Shown one piece after another: positions 1,436 through 22,271 of a stretch of 22,271 bases of DNA. The notes beneath the pieces are model-generated. The model saw only the letters and a list, made by a program, of their open reading frames with translations. It was not told the DNA's origin and ran no database searches. Each line of letters opens with the position of its first letter. The stretch's first letter is position 1. The translations under genes were made by a program, and so were the position numbers. The DNA is from a virus: IMG/VR virus record IMGVR_UViG_3300045425_000093, positions 1 to 22,271 of that record, one strand, 5' to 3'.

Positions 1436-4417
1436 TTAACCACGCTCATAAAGTCCTTCAGAAAAATTGGATCCTCCAGAAGAACCACCCGCAACCATAA
1501 CACCTCCTCCAATTGGAACTGGAGTTGTTATATAAACAATCTCAGGTTCTGGTTGTTCTACTACAACTTCTTGTTGTCCTCCAGGTTCATATCCTGCAAT
1601 GTGACTTATTGTATTAATAAGAGAATCTGCTTTGTTTTTTAATTGAGATGTATTTTCAATTGAATTTATTGTTGCAATAAAATCTTTTCCAAGAAGATCT
1701 ACAGAGTCTTTATCAACTACAAACTCACCTTTATGAAGATTATATTTCCCATCTTTGGGAACTAATCTCCCATGAAATGCAGATCCATCTGGTTTTTTAC
1801 TCATATGAAACAATTGAGTTTTTCCAGATCCAGGAACAGCAGCAGCATGACCAGATCCTCCAGATTGATAAAATGAATAATTAAGAGGAAATGGAACCAA
1901 AGGAAATCCTGGCATATTTACATCCATTCTTGGTCCGGGTCTATGTGTATGTTGTGCTATACCACTCTTTACAATATTAACATAATAGTCATTAGTTTGA
2001 CCAGAAAGTATTTTTGATCCATTGGCAAGTTCAGGTTTTAATCCAGAAGAAGCCATTTTTTTGAGAATAGGAACCATATCTCTTGTCAAAGTAGATTCAT
2101 TTGCACTATCAAAGTGTGCATGAGACCATCCAGGTTCAACACTTAATCTTCCAGTTCTACCAAATCTCCAAGTTCCCCCACCAGTACCAACATCTCTTCC
2201 TTCTCCGGGAATAAAAGTTCCTTGTTCACCTTTTTGAAGTGCTGCAAAAATTCTTGCAGATTGTGTCCAACGATCACCTTCTATTCCCCATCCAATGTAT
2301 TTGTATGAATCAGATTTCAATTGAGATTCAGTTCTATTTGGATCCATAAACTCATCAAGTAATCCATATTGTCTGAGTTCTTCTTTAATCCATCTAACTT
2401 GTTCGGCATTACTTGCAGTTTCTAAAGGTTTACCTAAGAATTTTTCCCCATTAACAATTCTTGAACGGTTCCAACTAATGAGACCTTTATTAGTTCCAGC
2501 ACCATCATTTAAAACCCAGGGAGTTCTTTGCCCTTTCCACGCTGATTCTGCCTGAACATTTCCAGCAAGAATTGCAGCAGCAAGCATAGGAAATCCCTGT
2601 GCCATAAACAATCTTGCTCCACCAATTGCATCAGTAGCAGACCCACCCCCACCCATATCTACTCCAGGTTCTTGTCCGGGAGGTTTTTCTTTTTCAATTA
2701 TATTAGGTTTCAACATCATCTGCTTCATAAGGTCATTAATTGCATCATCAACTTTCTTGGAAATATTTTCTTCTAAAGATTTTGCAATAACATTAGTCAT
2801 ATCACCACTACTCTTTGAGAGCATTTCAGCATTAATTTGACCACCACCAGCAGCTGCAAGTGCTCCAGTTCTCAACACTTCATCACTAAAAGTTACATTC
2901 ATCCAATTACTCAATCCTTGGGCAGCATTTTTATAATCAATAGGACTTGGTTTTTGACCAACAACTGCTTTAGTAGCAATTCCCATCAAAGCACCAAAAT
3001 ATGGTGCTTCACTTGTCTTCTTATAAGTATCTTCAATATATCCCAATGGATTTACAGTGCCGCTCTTTTCACTCTTAGGGAATACTTTTTCAATTTGCTT
3101 TTCTCCACCAATACTTGCTCCAGGTTTGATTGGTGTTGATTGAACTTTTACAGTTCTTCTTGCTTTTGTTATTTTTCGTTTTGCTGGACCAGTAACAATT
3201 CTACCACCTCTTGTTGAAGGAGCACTACCACCACCTGCAGCTTTTATACTCTTTTGTGGTTTTTGTGGAGAATTTTTACTATTAAAGATTTTATCATATA
3301 TAACCTCTGCAAGTTTAGAACCACCGGCACTACCAAGCCACATACCAATAGCAGTGCCAACACCAGGAATAGGTATTAATGATCCTAGGGCCCCTCCAAT
3401 CCAAGTTCCCAATCCAGCACCAACTCCTTTAAATGCTGCCTTTCCTACAGGATCTCCAGACATCCAAGAAAGTACAAACTCCATAACACCACCAATTAGC
3501 GGTATATTTCTAACTAATGGTGCTACTACTTTTAATGCAGTTTTTGTTCCTCCTTTACCAAGAGCACCAACAACAGCATTTCTACCAAATTTTGTTAGAG
3601 CACTCCGCTGCATAGATTTTGGAAGATTCTTAAGATTGTCTTTTCCAAATCTTTTAATGAATTCGTCTCTTCCGTATTTTTCAGCAAACCTTTTTTGAGT
3701 ATTTACACCAACTCTTCTTCCTGTGGTGTCAAACCCTCTTCTTGCGGGTTTTCCTCCTGGCCCACCACCCTTCTCACCACCAGATCCTAGATTACCTAAA
3801 GCAAGGGAAGCCGCAATAGCAGCAAATATAATGTTCTCAAATGCTTTATTAAGGGCATCAAATTTTTCTACTGCACCTTCACCACCAAAGTTTCTTAATT
3901 GTTTTCTTGTAAAATCAGCAACCTCATAACCTTTCTCAACAAAAGTTACCAATCCATTTAATAATGTTCCACCTACACTTGTAAGAAAATCAAGTGTTCC
4001 ACCAAGAAACTTTGCTACTCCTATAAGTTTAGGTAGATGTTCAATTAAACGAACAGCAATAAACCCAAGAAAAGTATTAAACAAAAAGTTTTTTATACGA
4101 TCTAAGAATCCAAGTTTAGGTGTTGAAGGAAGTTTAATACCAGTTTCTTTTGGTTTCTTTTTTTCTAGTTTCTTTTCAGTACCTTCAAACTTTTCCTGTT
4201 CTTGTTCTTTTTGTTTTCTTTTTTGTTCATTCTTTTTGGATAAAGTAATATTTGTAATTAGGTTTTTAATTTGAAATACTTGCTTTTTGATAATTGAAAA
4301 ATCATTTTCACCTGAGGTCTTTAATTTGTTTGAAGACACTGAAGTTTTTTTAGATGAAAAAGAAGAACCACCAAGTAACTTAGTTGAATTAACTTTAGAA
4401 GAAGAAAGTGATTTCAT
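1436..4417 (-). CDS. Tape-measure-like tail protein with tail-lysozyme-like domain
   Basis: This is a 993-residue virion protein. It has a Ser/Lys-rich start, a charged predicted coiled coil (about residues 40-95), hydrophobic helices (about 110-165), and a glycine-zipper block (about 330-371, GLGTWIGGALGSLIPIPGVG). A domain at about 600-740 resembles phage tail lysozyme: AAAILAGNVQAES, then GLISWNRSR, then a YIGWGIEG region, with Glu624 as the likely catalytic residue. Near residue 896 is HKGEFVVDKDSVDLLG, a motif also seen in the upstream gene. The C terminus is Gly/Pro-rich. The role inferred is a tail-interior or hub-associated protein that cuts peptidoglycan during DNA entry. The ATG lies 2 nt after the stop of the preceding gene, so the two are translated together. 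Tape measure versus hub lysozyme cannot be decided from sequence alone. Confidence 0.62.
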   Translation of the reverse strand: MKSLSSSKVNSTKLLGGSSFSSKKTSVSSNKLKTSGENDFSIIKKQVFQIKNLITNITLSKKNEQKRKQKEQEQEKFEGTEKKLEKKKPKETGIKLPSTPKLGFLDRIKNFLFNTFLGFIAVRLIEHLPKLIGVAKFLGGTLDFLTSVGGTLLNGLVTFVEKGYEVADFTRKQLRNFGGEGAVEKFDALNKAFENIIFAAIAASLALGNLGSGGEKGGGPGGKPARRGFDTTGRRVGVNTQKRFAEKYGRDEFIKRFGKDNLKNLPKSMQRSALTKFGRNAVVGALGKGGTKTALKVVAPLVRNIPLIGGVMEFVLSWMSGDPVGKAAFKGVGAGLGTWIGGALGSLIPIPGVGTAIGMWLGSAGGSKLAEVIYDKIFNSKNSPQKPQKSIKAAGGGSAPSTRGGRIVTGPAKRKITKARRTVKVQSTPIKPGASIGGEKQIEKVFPKSEKSGTVNPLGYIEDTYKKTSEAPYFGALMGIATKAVVGQKPSPIDYKNAAQGLSNWMNVTFSDEVLRTGALAAAGGGQINAEMLSKSSGDMTNVIAKSLEENISKKVDDAINDLMKQMMLKPNIIEKEKPPGQEPGVDMGGGGSATDAIGGARLFMAQGFPMLAAAILAGNVQAESAWKGQRTPWVLNDGAGTNKGLISWNRSRIVNGEKFLGKPLETASNAEQVRWIKEELRQYGLLDEFMDPNRTESQLKSDSYKYIGWGIEGDRWTQSARIFAALQKGEQGTFIPGEGRDVGTGGGTWRFGRTGRLSVEPGWSHAHFDSANESTLTRDMVPILKKMASSGLKPELANGSKILSGQTNDYYVNIVKSGIAQHTHRPGPRMDVNMPGFPLVPFPLNYSFYQSGGSGHAAAVPGSGKTQLFHMSKKPDGSAFHGRLVPKDGKYNLHKGEFVVDKDSVDLLGKDFIATINSIENTSQLKNKADSLINTISHIAGYEPGGQQEVVVEQPEPEIVYITTPVPIGGGVMVAGGSSGGSNFSEGLYERG

Positions 4418-4418
4418 T

Positions 4419-6890
4419 TTATCCCACTCTTACTCCATATAAAAATCTTGCTTTTGATGCCGTTGGACTAGCAGCATTAAACTTCGGTGCATTTGGTTTT
4501 GCTGAAGAAGTAGTTCCACCACCTCGCACATTACGCTTAGTATTTCTATTTGGAACATAAGTAACTCTTGCCTGCGATTGTGAAGGTGGAGTTATTCCGG
4601 AAGGTTTTAGTTTTTTTCTAAAATTCAAATCATTTTGAGTGTCTTTTAAATTTCCACCCATTTGCTTCATCATTCTTGCTTGAGCATCTGGTGTCATCCC
4701 TTGTTTTTGAAATCCTTCCAGGGCATTAACCATTGATTCCTTGTGCTTTTGTCTCTCAAGTTTTGCATCGTTGTCTTTATATGCACCCGGATTAATAAAT
4801 CTACCAAGCATTTCAAGTGGATTAGTTGTGCCAGTTCCGGATTGAGGTCCTCTTACATATACAAGTTTTCCACCCTTCAATGCCTTATATCCAATAGAAG
4901 GTCTTCCCTTATCATCAGTTATTATTGATGTCTTAGGAGCATCTTTAAATTCTTGTTTCTTTAACCCCCAACCACCTTTGATTGCTCCACCAATTCCACC
5001 ACGATTATTTCTTTCCTTTTCTGCATTTACTCCAGAAAAATCATCAGCAAGTTTTCCCCCTAACATTGCTCCACCATAACCAGCAGCAAGACCACCAACA
5101 ATTGCACCAACAGCAGCACCAACACCAGTCCCTAAACCAGGAACGATACTACCAAGGGCTGCACCAGCAAGAGCACCTGCTTTTGCTCCCGCCATCCAAC
5201 CAAGTTGACCACCCAGAGCAGATCCACCAGCACCTAATCCTGCTTGAACATTTGTTTGTCCTTCATCTTTTCTTTGTTTCATTTCAAATGCAGTCATTAT
5301 CGCAGAAAGAGATCCTCCACGAATACGACCTCCAGGTACATTCATATTTGTATTAATTCTTTGAACTGGTGGTTTTACAATTGAACTATTAGAAGTTGGT
5401 TTATAATTAACATCAACATTAGTTTTTACATTTACTCCAGTTGGTGGTTTATATACTCCCCTTTTAATTGCAATTTTTTTTATTTTTTCATATGTATTTT
5501 TATGTTCTTGATTATTTGGATCATAAGAAATTTCTTTAAGATTTTCTCCTCTATTATTATTTGCTGCCATTCTATAAAGTTCATCATCACCAACAAATCC
5601 TCCACCAAATGCATAAGTAGTACCTTGAACTACTTTAGGTTTATTTGTACCTCCACCAGCAGCGTTCATTGATTCAAGAGTATCCACACCATACTTTGCA
5701 ACAGCACCACGCGACATAACAAACTCACCATCAGTAAGCATCGCTGGAACTTTATCTGTTCCTTTTGGTCCTCCTACCATACCATTAGAAAATCCACCCA
5801 TATTACCGAATAGATTTTTTAAGTTTGCAAAACCTCCACCAGAAAATTGAGCTTTAGGTGTTTGAGGTTGCTCTTCTTTTTCACCACCAATACCACCAAA
5901 TCCTTCAATACCTTTACTTAAAGCAAAAGTCCCCCCTGCAACCGCAGCAAGTTCAAGACCCATTCCAATAAGTTTTCCTTTTGGTCCTCCAAGGAACTTA
6001 AGTGCCCCTGCAGCACCTTTAATTCCTGCTCGTGCTGCTAATCCTGCCGCTGCCTTAATTAGAGCACCAGTTCCCCAAATTGCAAGTTTAATTATTCCTC
6101 TTGCAAATGCACCAAGACCAGTACCAAATGCAACAAAAAGTGCGAGAAGTTTAGGCCAATGATCTCCTAAAAACCTTAAAATTGTATCAACTTTTTTCTT
6201 ATTTGCAGGATTATTAAACCACTCCAAAAGAAGAATTAAACTTCTTCCAATAAAAACTGCAAGAAAGAAATCAATAATTCTTTGAAGAATAGATTTAACC
6301 GGAGCAATTACTTTTTCAGCAATATTAAGTGCCTTAGAAAACCCACTTTCAAGATCTTTTTCTCTTGCCCCTCTTCTTGCATTTTCTTTTTCTCTTCTAT
6401 CTTTCTCTGAAGATTTTTTTGTAAGACCATTAAGAATAGTCAGTTGTTCTATAATTGCTGTGAGAGCATCTTGAATTTGTTCTAAGTCATTCTTTCCAGA
6501 CATCTTATCAATTGCTGGAGGAAGAGCAAGAGGTTTCATTCCTGCTCCCAACTTTTTACCAAGATTTAAATTAATTCCAGTCGCAGTTCCCTTCTTAAAA
6601 CTATCTGCAGTTATTTTCTTCTTCTTTGGAAATTTTTTAGACCTTATTCGTTTCAATTCTTCTGTGATTAACTCTTCGTCTTCTCTGGAGAGTTTACTTT
6701 TTCCCATAACAATTAAGAGCATCTTTTCCTTAAGAAGAGAAAGATACTCTTGTTCGTCTTCTATATCAAATTCACTTACTCCAAGAATTTTGAGTATTCT
6801 TGGATCTATTTTTCCAACATCAAAATTAGATTTATTTCCACTATTCTGTGAAGAAGATAATTTTAATAGTTTAGAAGAATTGACCGCCAT
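4419..6890 (-). CDS. Probable tail tape measure protein
   Basis: This 823-residue protein starts inside the end of gp51 (20-nt overlap). Its N terminus is Ser/Asn-rich, followed by a charged helical region (about 40-190). Strong hydrophobic helices come next (about 200-222 and 243-300), then a Gly/Pro linker, GGPKGTDKVPAMLTDGEFVM near residue 388, and a glycine-zipper block at about 565-616 (GSIVPGLGTGVGAAVGAIVGG). Long helices with membrane-like segments and the VPAMLTDGEFVM motif fit phage tape measure proteins, which set tail length and can enter the host membrane. Position directly after the gp26/gp51 pair matches the usual order of tail chaperone then tape measure. T4 gp29 is shorter (590 aa), and direct similarity to it is not evident by eye. 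Confidence 0.62.
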   Translation of the reverse strand: MAVNSSKLLKLSSSQNSGNKSNFDVGKIDPRILKILGVSEFDIEDEQEYLSLLKEKMLLIVMGKSKLSREDEELITEELKRIRSKKFPKKKKITADSFKKGTATGINLNLGKKLGAGMKPLALPPAIDKMSGKNDLEQIQDALTAIIEQLTILNGLTKKSSEKDRREKENARRGAREKDLESGFSKALNIAEKVIAPVKSILQRIIDFFLAVFIGRSLILLLEWFNNPANKKKVDTILRFLGDHWPKLLALFVAFGTGLGAFARGIIKLAIWGTGALIKAAAGLAARAGIKGAAGALKFLGGPKGKLIGMGLELAAVAGGTFALSKGIEGFGGIGGEKEEQPQTPKAQFSGGGFANLKNLFGNMGGFSNGMVGGPKGTDKVPAMLTDGEFVMSRGAVAKYGVDTLESMNAAGGGTNKPKVVQGTTYAFGGGFVGDDELYRMAANNNRGENLKEISYDPNNQEHKNTYEKIKKIAIKRGVYKPPTGVNVKTNVDVNYKPTSNSSIVKPPVQRINTNMNVPGGRIRGGSLSAIMTAFEMKQRKDEGQTNVQAGLGAGGSALGGQLGWMAGAKAGALAGAALGSIVPGLGTGVGAAVGAIVGGLAAGYGGAMLGGKLADDFSGVNAEKERNNRGGIGGAIKGGWGLKKQEFKDAPKTSIITDDKGRPSIGYKALKGGKLVYVRGPQSGTGTTNPLEMLGRFINPGAYKDNDAKLERQKHKESMVNALEGFQKQGMTPDAQARMMKQMGGNLKDTQNDLNFRKKLKPSGITPPSQSQARVTYVPNRNTKRNVRGGGTTSSAKPNAPKFNAASPTASKARFLYGVRVG

Positions 6891-7059
6891 TTTGTGTCTG
6901 CTGTTTTAATTTCTCTTCTTCAAGATGTTGTTTGAGTAGTTCCACATAGACATCTCGTTCCCAAGGCAACATATTTTCTATTTCCCATAGTGAATATTTA
7001 TGATATTGAACTAAGGAAAATGTGAGGCGAAAATAATACTCCAAGTCTATGTGAGACAT
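6871..7059 (-). CDS. gp51: Baseplate hub assembly protein gp51
   Basis: This is a 62-residue, mainly helical protein (SHIDLEYYFRLTFSLVQY, then ENMLPWERDVYVELLKQHLEEE) of the T4 gp51 hub-assembly type. In T4, gp51 is needed for hub assembly but is not a virion component. The ATG lies 2 nt after the gp26 stop and has no Shine-Dalgarno sequence in front of it. Translation therefore probably depends on gp26, by reinitiation or by -1 frameshifting at the slippery heptamer at 7068-7074. That shift would join gp26 to gp51 through Arg-Val-Ala. The C-terminal helix 'LEEEKLKQQ' is followed by the overlapping start of the tape-measure gene. The name rests on size, position after gp26, and resemblance to cyanophage gp51. 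Confidence 0.8.
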   Translation of the reverse strand: MSHIDLEYYFRLTFSLVQYHKYSLWEIENMLPWERDVYVELLKQHLEEEKLKQQTQNGGQFF

Positions 7060-7061
7060 CG

Positions 7062-7778
7062 CTACGCGAAAAAAGATGCTAACCCTTCTATAACAACTTC
7101 ACTTTCTACTTCAGTGTTTGGATTTGTTACTTTCACTTTATGAGAAAGTTTAGGCATTGTTTCAAAGAACTTTTCTATCTCTTTAAATTGAGATGAATTC
7201 ATTTGTTCTATGAAGTCAATTATCTCTTTCTTGGTTACATCAGCCGCAGACCACACTTCATCTTCAGTATAAATTTTATCAATACAACTTGCAATTAATT
7301 CAAATGATTGATCCATTGCATTATTTGTAAAGTCAAAGTTGTTTTTGATAAACTGATCTAGTGATGGATACTTCATTTCCATCATAATACTAGCGTCAAC
7401 TTTAACTTTGTTTGAGTGTTCTTCGTTTGTTTCAACTTTAATTGAATCAATATCAATTTTTACTACAACATTTGTGATTTCGTCATCAGGGCAAATAATA
7501 TTGACTTCAATTTCTTCTCCTACTGATTTTCCTCGAATATTTAAGAACAAATATTCAATATCAAAAGTTGGAAGTGCTTCTACTTTAATTCCTTTAGTGT
7601 GAATGCAACTTTTAATTACATTCTTAATTGCAGTAGTAATCTGTTTGGTATCTTCACTTTCTAGTGCAATTACAAGTAGTTTCTCTTCCTTAACGAGAAA
7701 AGGTCTATATTTTATTTCTTGTCCAGTTGATGGCAATTCAAGTGTATATTGCGGTACACTAATCTTAGGTAATGGCAT
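7062..7778 (-). CDS. gp26: Baseplate hub subunit gp26 (T4 baseplate family)
   Basis: A 238-residue protein of the T4 gp26 baseplate hub family. Recognisable features are the opening PLPKISVPQYTLELPSTG, the segment EIKYRPFLVKEEKLLVIALE, and a C-terminal helical half (KKEIIDFIEQMNSSQFKEIEKFFETMP). In T4, gp26 takes part in hub assembly. A perfect late promoter, TATAAATA at 7807-7814, lies 29 nt upstream of the ATG, so the gene can be expressed apart from gp54. The last sense codons are TCT TTT TTC GCG before TAG, which place a T_TTT_TTC slippery heptamer in the zero frame. The -1 frame from there stays open through gp51 and would give a 302-residue fusion. Whether the shift occurs is inferred. 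Confidence 0.92.
   Translation of the reverse strand: MPLPKISVPQYTLELPSTGQEIKYRPFLVKEEKLLVIALESEDTKQITTAIKNVIKSCIHTKGIKVEALPTFDIEYLFLNIRGKSVGEEIEVNIICPDDEITNVVVKIDIDSIKVETNEEHSNKVKVDASIMMEMKYPSLDQFIKNNFDFTNNAMDQSFELIASCIDKIYTEDEVWSAADVTKKEIIDFIEQMNSSQFKEIEKFFETMPKLSHKVKVTNPNTEVESEVVIEGLASFFA
7068..7074 (-). promoter_or_regulatory. Candidate -1 ribosomal frameshift site (T_TTT_TTC)
   Basis: Read on the minus strand, the end of gp26 is TCT-TTT-TTC-GCG-TAG. The heptamer T TTT TTC matches the X_XXY_YYZ rule in the zero frame, so both tRNAs could re-pair after a one-base slip. The -1 frame then reads CGC-GTA-GCG-ATG, which enters gp51 at its own ATG with no stop between. No clear downstream stimulatory hairpin was seen. 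Confidence 0.55.
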
Positions 7779-7822: not shown

Positions 7823-8701
7823 TTAGAATAGTGTAAAATTGCTCAATTTGACATTTTCAAATACTCTTGTGGGATCATCATCAATATTAAATGCTGTACC
7901 AGAAGAAATATTATACTGATTGAATGATAGATTATTAGAATATGTCTGATTATATATTGCTTGTTCTTCAGGTGTTAAATTATAAGGATTTGGAGTTCCT
8001 GCAGCAGTGTCTGGTGATCCTGGTTGTCCTTGTGGATTTGAAATAAGAGTTTTAACTACATAACGACTATAAGTAAATGATACGGTACATTTCAATAACT
8101 GAGCGGCATCATAAGAAACTGGCATAGATGTAATGCTGATTGGAAATGCATTTACAAATTGATACTGAAGTGTATTATTATCTTGTTTTATTTTTGCATT
8201 TGAATTAATTCCTTTTCTTTGATATGGATCAGTGTCTTTCTCAAATTTTGTTATGAAAAGAGATGGAGTAATATAATTTTTCGGATAATTCATTCGGTAT
8301 GAATATGTTGATTTTTCTTGTCCTTCAAAATTGTCTTCACCAACGATATATGAAATCCAAGTTTCAAAGAAAAGAATACTTGTATATTCTCTATCAACAT
8401 AAAAACTAAAGTCTGCCCTATCATCATATAAACGACGATATGCGTGTCTTTCTGTTACACCAGTAAAATCATTATTAAGTTCGTGAGTTGCTATAGATGA
8501 ACCAGGAAGAGAAGCTTCTGAACAAGAAAGTTCTATAATTTCTTGATTTTTTACATTAAGAGGAATTTTCCTTGGGTTAAAAAAATCTTTAACAGGTTGG
8601 GGTGGTGTAAAAGAACAACGAAAATGTGAAGTTAATGCTGGTCTCAATAACTTTTGTTTTATAACATTTACGCCAATAGACTTTGTTGACGGCCCTTCCA
8701 T
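7823..8701 (-). CDS. gp54: Baseplate tail tube initiator, gp54-like
   Basis: This 292-residue protein resembles T4 gp54, which sits on the baseplate hub and starts tail tube polymerisation. Visible features are SLPGSSIATHEL near the N terminus, YDDRADFSFYVDREYTSILFFETWISYIVG in the middle, and LQYQFVNAFPISITSMPVSYDA followed by CTVSFTYSRYVV, which is a tube-protein (gp19-like) beta pattern. The Asn/Gln-rich C terminus ends in FENVKLSNFTLF. I chose the ATG at 8701 (MEGPSTKS). The longer reading from 8758 would run across the divergent gp4 start and its promoters. T4 gp54 is 320 aa. A tail tube gp19 paralogue is the main alternative, but the divergent gp4/gp48/gp53 neighbours favour gp54. Confidence 0.8.
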   Translation of the reverse strand: MEGPSTKSIGVNVIKQKLLRPALTSHFRCSFTPPQPVKDFFNPRKIPLNVKNQEIIELSCSEASLPGSSIATHELNNDFTGVTERHAYRRLYDDRADFSFYVDREYTSILFFETWISYIVGEDNFEGQEKSTYSYRMNYPKNYITPSLFITKFEKDTDPYQRKGINSNAKIKQDNNTLQYQFVNAFPISITSMPVSYDAAQLLKCTVSFTYSRYVVKTLISNPQGQPGSPDTAAGTPNPYNLTPEEQAIYNQTYSNNLSFNQYNISSGTAFNIDDDPTRVFENVKLSNFTLF

Positions 8702-8702
8702 T

Positions 8703-8710
8703 AATAAATA
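8703..8710 (+). promoter_or_regulatory. Late promoter-like AATAAATA upstream of gp4
   Basis: The plus strand reads AATAAATA, which fits the cyanophage late form NATAAATA. It ends 21 nt before the gp4 ATG in the 30-bp divergent spacer. Confidence 0.5.
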
Positions 8711-8726
8711 CTGCTGGATTATTATG

Positions 8727-8734
8727 TATTTATG
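8727..8734 (-). promoter_or_regulatory. Late promoter-like CATAAATA upstream of gp54
   Basis: The minus strand reads CATAAATA, matching NATAAATA, and lies 25 nt before the chosen gp54 ATG. Its first bases are the complement of the gp4 start codon (8732-8734). Transcription from it would give a very short leader, which supports the 8701 start for gp54. Confidence 0.5.
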
Positions 8735-9181
8735 GCGCGAGACGGAAAATATCATCAAGGAAGATTTAATCCAAGAAATCCAGAAAAATATAAAGGTGAT
8801 ATAAGAAATATCATTTATAGATCTTCTTGGGAATTAAAGTTTCTTCAATGGTGTGATCGTAGTGAAAATATTTTAGAATATGGATCTGAAGAGTTTTTTA
8901 TTCCTTATCTTGATCCCAACACTGGTAAAATAAGACGATACTTTCCCGATGCTTATGTGAAGGTTAAAGAAGCAAATGGAAAGATTAAAAAATACATTAT
9001 TGAAATCAAACCTTTGAGGCAAACAAAACCACCTATTCCAGGAAAGAAAAAGAGACAGACTTTAATTGCAGAAGCACTAACTTATGAAAAGAATCTTGCA
9101 AAATGGGAGGCCGCAAGACAGTGGTGTGCTGATAGAATGTTAGAATTCAAGATTCTCACGGAATTGGATTTGGGGATATAA
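8732..9181 (+). CDS. gp4: Head completion nuclease-like protein gp4
   Basis: A 149-residue protein of the T4 gp4 (head completion, 150 aa) type. The N terminus KGKF-like pattern appears as QGRFNPRNPEKYKGDIRNIIYRSSWELKF. A PD-(D/E)XK-like core follows: Glu in 'SSWELKFLQWCD', Asp in 'RYFPDAYVKV', and 'YIIEIKP' giving the E-x-K pair. In T4, head completion proteins finish the filled head before tail joining; a nuclease fold for gp4 is inferred from these residues. It is the first gene of the plus-strand cluster and diverges from gp54. No strong ribosome site precedes the ATG. Its stop codon is embedded in the late promoter of gp48. Confidence 0.88.
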   Translation: MARDGKYHQGRFNPRNPEKYKGDIRNIIYRSSWELKFLQWCDRSENILEYGSEEFFIPYLDPNTGKIRRYFPDAYVKVKEANGKIKKYIIEIKPLRQTKPPIPGKKKRQTLIAEALTYEKNLAKWEAARQWCADRMLEFKILTELDLGI

Positions 9182-19173: not shown

Positions 19174-19265
19174 AATAGTACAACTAAAGGTATAAGAATT
19201 GTTAAAATTGAAATGATAATGCCCACTGCTATTTCTAACAGTGGGCGAATACTGTATGGGTCCAT
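19170..19265 (-). CDS. Tiny membrane peptide, 31 aa
   Basis: A 31-codon ORF too short for standard callers. It starts MDPYSIRPLLEIAVG and continues with a hydrophobic run of Ile, Leu and Val that forms one membrane helix to its end. It is coupled on both sides: TAATG with the HNH gene stop and ATGA with the glutaredoxin start. A GC-rich 8-bp hairpin lies inside (19221-19246). No known small photosystem or cytochrome subunit is recognised; function is unknown. Confidence 0.65.
   Translation of the reverse strand: MDPYSIRPLLEIAVGIIISILTILIPLVVLL
19221..19246. repeat. GC-rich 8-bp hairpin in the 31-aa gene
   Basis: GCCCACTG (19221-19228) and CAGTGGGC (19239-19246) pair perfectly with a 10-nt loop. 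This is one of the most GC-rich stems in an AT-rich region. It lies about 50 nt before the glutaredoxin start and has no U-tract. Confidence 0.6.
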
Positions 19266-19633
19266 TAAATTATATTTCTTCTTGGGCGATAGGTATAGTA
19301 TTCATTATCATTTATTTGTTTTTGCCATTCTATAATAGCAGATAATTTTTCGGTTGTAAAGAATGATTGTTGCATATACCAATCATACCAAGCTTGATGA
19401 CCCTTTGATTGGTTACAAGAATGGCAAGCACATAAGACATTTGCAACTCGGTCACTTCCACCTTTGGATATTGGAGTGATATGATCTAATGTTAAATTTT
19501 TATCAGATTCACAATATGCACATTCATAATTCCATTTTTCTTTGATTGATTGTCTCCATTTTCTTTTTGCTTCTGAACTTGTAGTTGCCTCAAGATTATA
19601 CAAAAGTTCGTCTGAAGTGGAGTAAAGTGGCAT
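19265..19633 (-). CDS. HNH endonuclease
   Basis: A 122-residue HNH nuclease. The core starts at WNYECAYCESDKNLTLDHITPISKGG, with Cys38/Cys41 and Asp50-His51, and ends at Asn65 and CACHSCNQSKG (Cys70, Cys73, Asn74). This is the classical zinc-stabilised beta-beta-alpha-metal fold that cuts double-stranded DNA. Free-standing HNH genes in T-even phages are often homing endonucleases. I chose the ATG at 19633 (MPLYSTSDEL); a TTG six codons upstream is less likely. It is embedded among small auxiliary genes and overlaps a possible 57-codon gene at its 5' end. Confidence 0.88.
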   Translation of the reverse strand: MPLYSTSDELLYNLEATTSSEAKRKWRQSIKEKWNYECAYCESDKNLTLDHITPISKGGSDRVANVLCACHSCNQSKGHQAWYDWYMQQSFFTTEKLSAIIEWQKQINDNEYYTYRPRRNII

Positions 19634-19769
19634 TCTTAAGATGCGTACCAAAAATATTTAGAGTTTCTTGAAGAGTGATATAAATGTAGTCAAACTCATC
19701 ATGAACAGAAATATCCTGATCCCTTTCAAAGAATTTAGAACATTTTTTGATTGTTATGTTTTTTAGCAC
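19596..19769 (-). CDS. Possible small protein, 57 aa
   Basis: This ORF begins with GTG (AGAGG about 5 nt upstream) and fills the 83 bases between the HNH and 72-residue genes, overlapping both. It reads MLKNITIKKCSKFFERDQDI, then a segment ending DEFDYIYITLQETLNIFG. Codons in the unshared part are AT-ending and protein-like. The C-terminal part overlapping the HNH gene reads less naturally. No family is recognised. It could also be a decayed gene end. Confidence 0.42.
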   Translation of the reverse strand: MLKNITIKKCSKFFERDQDISVHDEFDYIYITLQETLNIFGTHLKNATLLHFRRTFV

Positions 19770-21248: not shown

Positions 21249-21677
21249 TTATTGGTGCTTTTGTAGGTATTTAATCATTTCTTCCAATACTCCTGAATTT
21301 TCTCCAACATAACCCATAGTTCTATTGCATATATTACAAAGTAGTCCACGAACCTTTCCTGTCTTATGGTCGTGGTCTACATAAAAAACATCAACTCCGC
21401 CACCTCTACCAGATTTTCTACCTTTTGGGTCAGTACTTTCACAAATAGCACAACGATGATTTTGTTGTTCTAATAGAGTATTGTACTCTTCAATACCAAT
21501 ACCATAAACCCTTTTTAGATTTTCATCTCTCTTTTTTATAGGGTCATATTTTTCTTGTTGTTTTTTTACATAACAAGATTTACATTTCCCGTGATATCCA
21601 TACGGTTCTCCATTTCTTATAGTTTGATAAAACTCGGAAAGTGGTTTTATTTGATTACAGATGTTGCAGGTTCTCAT
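21249..21677 (-). CDS. Endonuclease VII-like HNH nuclease next to psbA
   Basis: A 142-residue nuclease with two zinc sites. The first (Cys4, Cys7, Cys32, Cys35) is an N-terminal finger that could bind DNA. The second, with Cys76-x2-Cys79 (RCAICE), Asp101-His-Asp-His104 (YVDHDHKTGKVRGLLC) and Cys114-x2-Cys117-Asn (CNICN), is the recombination endonuclease VII/HNH core. T4 endonuclease VII (gp49) resolves branched DNA, but the finger fusion and position just downstream of psbA fit a free-standing homing endonuclease; a psbA-adjacent homing enzyme (F-CphI) is known from cyanophage S-PM2, although I cannot say this is related. It has its own promoter, set apart from psbA by a terminator. Confidence 0.88.
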   Translation of the reverse strand: MRTCNICNQIKPLSEFYQTIRNGEPYGYHGKCKSCYVKKQQEKYDPIKKRDENLKRVYGIGIEEYNTLLEQQNHRCAICESTDPKGRKSGRGGGVDVFYVDHDHKTGKVRGLLCNICNRTMGYVGENSGVLEEMIKYLQKHQ

Positions 21678-21774: not shown

Positions 21775-22271
21775 TCAACCGATTGAAGGTGCAGTTAAAG
21801 CAACAGAAGTTGTTTCAGCAGCAGCAAGGTCTAATGGAAAGTTGTGGGCATTACGCTCATGCATAACCTCCATACCCAACCCAGCTTTGTTCAATATGTC
21901 CGCCCAAGTAGGAATTACATGACCCTGATTATCCAGAATACTCTGGTTAAAATTCAGTCCGTTGAGATTAAAAGCCATTGTAGAAACGCCAAGAGCAGTG
22001 AACCAGATGCCTACAACAGGCCAGGCAGCAAGGAAGAAGTGCAACGAACGTGAGTTATTAAAGGACGCATATTGGAAAATAAGACGACCAAAGTACCCGT
22101 GAGCAGCCACGATGTTGTATGTCTCTTCTTCTTGTCCGAACTTGTAACCATAATTCTGCGATTCAGTTTCTGTGGTCTCACGAACCAAAGAAGAAGTCAC
22201 AAGTGAACCGTGCATCGCAGAGAACAGTGAACCACCGAAGACACCAGCAACACCTAACATATGGAAGGGGT
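21775..22271 (-). CDS. psbA: Photosystem II D1 protein, 3' part
   Basis: The C-terminal part of D1, the reaction-centre core protein of photosystem II, cut by the window edge at about codon 195. Numbering back from the C terminus gives His198 and His215 (HPFHM, AMHG), Phe255, Ser264, His272, and the manganese-cluster ligands His332, Glu333, His337, Asp342 and Ala344 in [14 protein letters not shown]. The 15-residue extension after Ala344 is the CtpA-cleaved tail, so a full-length protein of about 359 aa is expected. All functional residues visible are intact, and no intron interrupts this part. Cyanophages express psbA during infection to keep photosynthesis going as host D1 decays. GC content is higher than in neighbouring genes, as expected for a host-derived gene. 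Confidence 0.99.

Follow-up and report, generated by a model that had tools for sequence, protein, structure and literature searches.

A conserved -1 frameshift signal at the gp26-gp51 junction of a cyanophage-related virus record predicts a tail assembly chaperone pair of the lambda G/GT kind

Frameshifting of the G-T type is described in a review as widely conserved "except T4". In the T4 literature, gp26 and gp51 appear as chaperones of hub assembly and the tape measure gp29 as a part of the hub, with gp51 needed for baseplate assembly and absent from the particle. According to papers that cite it, a 2022 study by Vladimirov, Gautam and Davidson (Virology 566:9-15) already identified tail chaperone genes in T4-like phages, and in the Vandenendeviridae and Andersonviridae a -1 chaperone frameshift with an invariant GTTTTT motif stands before the tape measure (PMC12846349). 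Here we analyzed gp26 and gp51 on the minus strand of a 22,271-base virus record (IMGVR_UViG_3300045425_000093; this whole stretch is the window), whose gp26 relatives are cyanophage myoviruses (nearest isolate among the matches listed: Bellamy, 79% identity). The comparison of sequences suggests that gp26 and "gp51" are almost certainly one gene read in two ways by a programmed ribosomal slip, and we put the probability that -1 frameshifting at their junction is real at about 0.93. It also appears very likely that the short gp26 and long gp26-51 products are tail assembly chaperones similar to lambda G/GT. The central claim, frameshifted T4-like chaperones, is probably not new; a literature search leaving out most subscription journals found no paper on the flanking elements, the cyanophage case or the +1 cases described below.

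The junction is composed of the following features, given in window coordinates:

7062..7778, minus strand: gp26, predicted short chaperone form (G-like), 238 aa; PF12322 T4_baseplate (Pfam E 6.4e-76), phrog_150
7068..7074, minus strand: slippery heptamer T_TTT_TTC in the zero frame, predicted -1 frameshift site, kept as T_TTT_TTY in related loci
7083..7088, minus strand: Shine-Dalgarno (SD)-like GAAGGG 5' of the heptamer, candidate slip stimulator by anti-SD pairing
7045..7057, minus strand: candidate downstream hairpin GUCU-CACAU-AGAC with a 4-bp stem read from the sequence; the structure is weak here and strong in most relatives
6871..7067, minus strand: predicted -1 frame C-terminal domain of the long form; phrog_634, E 1.3e-24
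7059-6871, minus strand: annotated gp51, 62 aa, with RVA preceding its ATG

The minus strand reads ...GAA GGG TTA GCA TCT TTT TTC GCG TAG CG ATG TCT CAC..., and the T_TTT_TTC that the original prediction had placed in the gp26 zero frame, two codons ahead of the stop, is indeed found there (7074-7068). The gp51 ATG lies 2 nt past the gp26 TAG (TAG CG ATG). After a -1 slip the codons would be CGC GTA GCG ATG (R-V-A-M), and the frame would read FF-RVA-MSHIDLEYYF, stop-free into gp51, giving the long form of 237+3+62 = 302 residues that had been proposed. Predicted long-form peptides in the window are VAMSHIDLEYYFR, which starts before the gp51 ATG, and VTNPNTEVESEVVIEGLASFFR, which spans the slip or starts before the gp51 ATG. 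No SD sequence was found near the gp51 ATG, the sole SD-like run being GAAGGG about 23 nt upstream, 5' of the heptamer. The earlier description of the sequence, with its statement that gp51 has no ribosome site of its own, was correct throughout.

We read the end of gp26 in 246 related loci, near duplicates included (64 were left at less than about 80% identity). T_TTT_TTY stood at the gp26 end in 242 of the 246, down to about 22% gp26 identity, and the expectation that relatives keep the heptamer thus holds over a very wide range. The site spans the Kyanoviridae with uncultured relatives and phages of Pseudomonas, Vibrio (XZ1), Stenotrophomonas, Aeromonas (AS-zj), Cronobacter (LPCS28), Rhizobium and Agrobacterium. 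The four loci without it are Vibrio K474, Vibrio K393, the Streptococcus-labelled phage GXN1 and Rhizobium I1_9, the last having T_TTT_TTG instead, still slippery and with the -1 frame open. Elsewhere the heptamer was rare: it occupied 2 of 15,112 codon positions in the bodies of the 64 non-redundant gp26 genes, and 3 of 6,144 in the 23 larger open reading frames (ORFs) of the window, the gp26 site counted. Moreover, every T_TTT_TTY locus but S-SCSM1 (241 of 242) has a -1 frame that stays open over 56 to 76 codons. The expected conservation of this frame likewise holds over a very wide range; S-SCSM1 and the Thornevirus-type phages have gp51 in another frame.

An amino-acid constraint does not explain the heptamer, because other Phe-Phe pairs in the gp26 genes are mostly written differently (TTC TTT in 34 of 70, TTT TTC in 6 of 70) and because gp26 of T4-type phages (Tevenvirinae) keeps Phe-Phe at the site mostly as TTC TTT after GAA/GAG. 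The residue following the slip in the -1 frame is Arg in 48 of 54 loci, and the zero-frame residue at that codon varies freely (A16 G16 V9 E6 and others). The first 14 codons of the extension hold no ATG in 98 of 241 loci, and none of ATG, GTG or TTG in 80. In locus L188 and its like, the gp51 core starts ahead of the gp26 stop, so that the gp51 domain could hardly be produced except by frameshifting. The ATG annotated as the beginning of gp51 is missing from many relatives and probably does not serve as a start codon. What the sequences themselves show is the slip signal, the fact that it is conserved, and selection for a fused product. Separately, the -1 gp51-like domain of Cronobacter LPCS28 and Aeromonas AS-zj (loci L249 3700-3880 and L250 3700-3875) was found to be unannotated.

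In the family, the heptamer is flanked by an SD-like element and a covarying hairpin. Between -90 and +30, the strongest anti-SD pairing ends 7 nt before the heptamer (64 loci; mean -6.05 kcal/mol), and it exceeds that obtained by protein-preserving codon resampling (-6.10 vs -4.96, sd 0.15); its distance from the gp51 ATG is too great for it to act as the ribosome site of gp51. RNA folding, compared with dinucleotide shuffles along the scanned region, was better than shuffles solely just 3' of the heptamer (family mean z -1.9). One common hairpin register for all relatives was rejected, as different clades use different registers. In the window's own group, a GGUCC/GGACC hairpin had 86.8% of cells paired with 18 two-sided changes, and 0 of 500 shuffles scored as high. 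A second group showed GCCUC/GAGGC with 95.6% paired and whole-pair swaps, a percentage biased by the fact that members were picked for that register. As in bacterial -1 cassettes of the dnaX/IS type, an X_XXY_YYZ heptamer and an upstream SD-like element are both present, and the downstream RNA structure of that cassette is covarying in the family and weak in the window.

We also asked how the two proteins are related to those of T4. The window gp26 and gp51 match the T4 gp26/gp51 family (PF12322, phrog_150, phrog_634; hhalign 99.5-99.6). Residues 15-253 of T4-type gp51 (250 aa) align with 23-290 of 304 in the virtual fusion (probability 99.5), and T4-type gp26 aligns with the short form only, ending at the slip site (probability 99.6). 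T4-type gp26 and gp51 both match PF12322 and phrog_150, and gp28, used as negative control, reached 1.3 in the profile comparison. On these alignments, T4 holds the short and long forms as two separate genes, and the cyanophage "gp51" corresponds only to the C-terminal domain of T4 gp51. As genes 26 and 51 are divergent in T4-type phages, no slip can join them. T4-type phages do not frameshift, and their gp51 is the full long form. T4 gp28 as a further paralogue, a weak hint from PHROG, was ruled out by the profile comparison.

The gene order is tail tube, gp26, gp51 and a probable tape measure, the two outer genes being:

7823..8758, minus strand: gene for the tail tube protein, next to gp26 on its upstream side (the place of V in lambda); PF23849 E 1.8e-14, phrog_45 E 5e-33
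4419..6890, minus strand: probable tape measure of 823 aa with two hydrophobic segments; matches tape-measure families weakly (E 6e-4 at best)

The phages SP-15 and LIS04 have, after tail sheath and tail tube genes and the pair homologous to gp26-gp51, a gene with the annotation tape measure. The gene following gp51 had been described as an overlapping tape measure gene; the overlap (20 nt between gp51 and the ORF at 6890-4419) is real, and the identity is likely, if weakly shown. A homologue of T4 gp29 was also considered for this gene, and no support was found. We modelled the gp26 structure from an alignment (pLDDT 87; a single-sequence model had only pLDDT 34). Over residues 1-88, the top PDB match of the model was 2ob9, the tail assembly chaperone of HK97 (gp26 residues 1-86; Z 7.7, rmsd 4.0, 84 aligned), followed by YqbN 3klu (Z 7.3), a prophage tail-chaperone-like protein, and then by matches at 5.0 and 2.8. 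A profile search of PDB sequences with gp26 found nothing. Both earlier proposals, a lambda G/GT layout just upstream of the tape measure and gp26/gp51 as the chaperone pair, gain support, the former from gene order and the conserved frameshift signal, the latter from gene order, the HK97-chaperone match and the long form present as one gene in T4-type phages.

Other genes of the window were also noticed. After the probable tape measure, positions 1436-4417 encode a large tail protein with weak tail-lysozyme and tape-measure matches, and either ORF could be the ruler. A head-closure (gp4-like) gene at 8732-9181 carries a TnsA-like endonuclease domain (PF08722, E 2.3e-21). Judged from their translations, the ORFs at 19265-19651 and 21249-21677 are HNH-endonuclease-like, and 21775-22269, at the window end, is a psbA-like fragment.

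We propose that most ribosomes would end at the gp26 TAG and release the short form. A minority would be slowed by the upstream SD-like contact and, in most relatives, by a hairpin about 6-10 nt downstream; tRNA-Phe in the P and A sites would then re-pair one base back on U_UUU_UUC, giving the 302-residue long form. In line with the model for lambda gpG/gpGT, the gp26 part would bind and hold the tape measure, and tail-tube subunits would be recruited by the C-terminal domain that only the rare long form carries. What we infer here is the efficiency of the slip, the binding partners and the activity as chaperones.

The relatives with other layouts deserve a closer description. In S-SCSM1 (locus L082 4690-4760) the heptamer is intact and an 11-nt insertion after the gp26 stop shifts gp51 to the +1/-2 frame; the related S-B05 is arranged in the usual way. 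In three Thornevirus-type phages, SP-15, LIS04 and GXN1 (loci L277 2100-2440, L278 2100-2460 and L252 3600-3997), the gp51-like domain is in the +1 (or -2) frame, which is new as far as could be checked. NCC CGA TTY near the gp26 end is common to the three, and in SP-15 and LIS04 no start codon was found near the junction in the frame of the domain. This frame would be accounted for if ribosomes slipped by +1 on NCC_C while the slow codon CGA occupied the A site; scans for further relatives of SP-15 with the domain in the +1 frame returned no phage other than SP-15. In Ackermannviridae such as SFP10 (L274 2270-2510, L279 2260-2480, L282-L296), a gp51-like -1 frame follows ATT TTC ATT TAA, a slip site that is not X_XXY_YYZ, and this frame is unannotated in SFP10 and phiEa2809. 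A gp51 in another frame, which the original prediction had taken as evidence against a fusion, is thus present in S-SCSM1 and the Thornevirus-type phages, and it looks like a change of mechanism and not a loss of the fusion. As the exceptions change the mechanism and keep the product, they favour selection for the fusion. There is about an even chance that this is one orthologous family in which the mechanism for the long form was swapped several times, by -1 slip, +1 slip or separate genes, with the product kept. Taken jointly, and at the same even odds, the series would comprise a -1 slip on T_TTT_TTY (most), a +1 slip on NCC_CGA_TTY (Thornevirus-type), a relaxed -1 slip on NTT_TTY (Ackermannviridae), a slip in S-SCSM1 that may be -2 or +1, and in T4 one gene for each of the two forms. 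The register of the downstream hairpin likewise shifts between clades.

Several observations weigh against our interpretation. S-SCSM1, the three Thornevirus-type phages and some Ackermannviridae are without the canonical -1 arrangement, and in the window the stretch 7064-7023 folds no better than shuffles (z -0.21). Concerning the chaperone function, the Foldseek E-values of the chaperone matches (1.2, 1.8) are not significant, a Z of 7.7 is within the range that the tool calls common, and the 823-aa protein matches tape-measure families weakly and T4 gp29 not at all.

The most direct alternative to a slip is that gp51 is made separately by termination-reinitiation, ribosomes stopping at the gp26 TAG and restarting at the ATG 2 nt on without any fusion. 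We consider this very improbable. Although the TAG CG ATG spacing fits such coupling and TAATG overlaps occur in Vibrio K474, K393 and YC, which lack a canonical heptamer, the loci lacking ATG (98/241) or any of the three start codons (80/241), as well as the L188-like loci with their early gp51 core, argue against a restart. Reinitiation would also leave unexplained why the heptamer is invariant, why the Arg that precedes the ATG is constrained and why T4-type phages have a natural fusion. A fusion could also arise without ribosomal frameshifting if transcription slipped on the T run and yielded mixed-frame mRNAs, as six consecutive T in an AT-rich phage might suggest. The tract, however, is short, is nearly always TTTTTTC and keeps the X_XXY_YYZ register, and the SD-like element and the hairpin are spaced from it as is usual where ribosomes slip by -1. 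We regard this explanation as the most remote of those considered. Finally, the fusion may be made and gp26/gp51 still be hub-assembly factors, their annotated role, instead of chaperones of the tape measure. The T4 literature does name both as hub assembly chaperones; gene order, the HK97-chaperone-like N domain and the tape measure beside the pair in SP-15 and LIS04 speak for the tape measure, and the two roles may coincide, given that T4 gp29 belongs to the hub. We consider a hub role to the exclusion of the tape measure improbable.

If gp26 and gp51 are indeed a frameshifted chaperone pair, one joined gene would replace the annotation "hub subunit" plus "hub assembly catalyst" in hundreds of abundant cyanophages and other T4-like phages, the "catalyst" gp51 of T4 would be explained as a long tail chaperone, and the family would let the exchange of recoding mechanisms be traced.

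Among described systems, lambda gpG/gpGT shares with this locus a pair between tail tube and (probable) tape measure and a small C-terminal domain in the -1 frame; it differs in the heptamer, here U_UUU_UUC, and the present phage is contractile-tailed and T4-like. The HK97 chaperone 2ob9 has 10% identity with gp26, which carries a further domain of about 150 residues. The Vandenendeviridae and Andersonviridae (PMC12846349) also slip by -1 ahead of the tape measure, and their GTTTTT resembles the NTT TTY of Ackermannviridae, although they are another phage group with another motif. T4 gp26 and gp51 are homologous to the pair described here, T4-type gp26 being the short form and T4-type gp51 the full long form, but Tevenvirinae carry them apart, as divergent genes that lack a slippery site.
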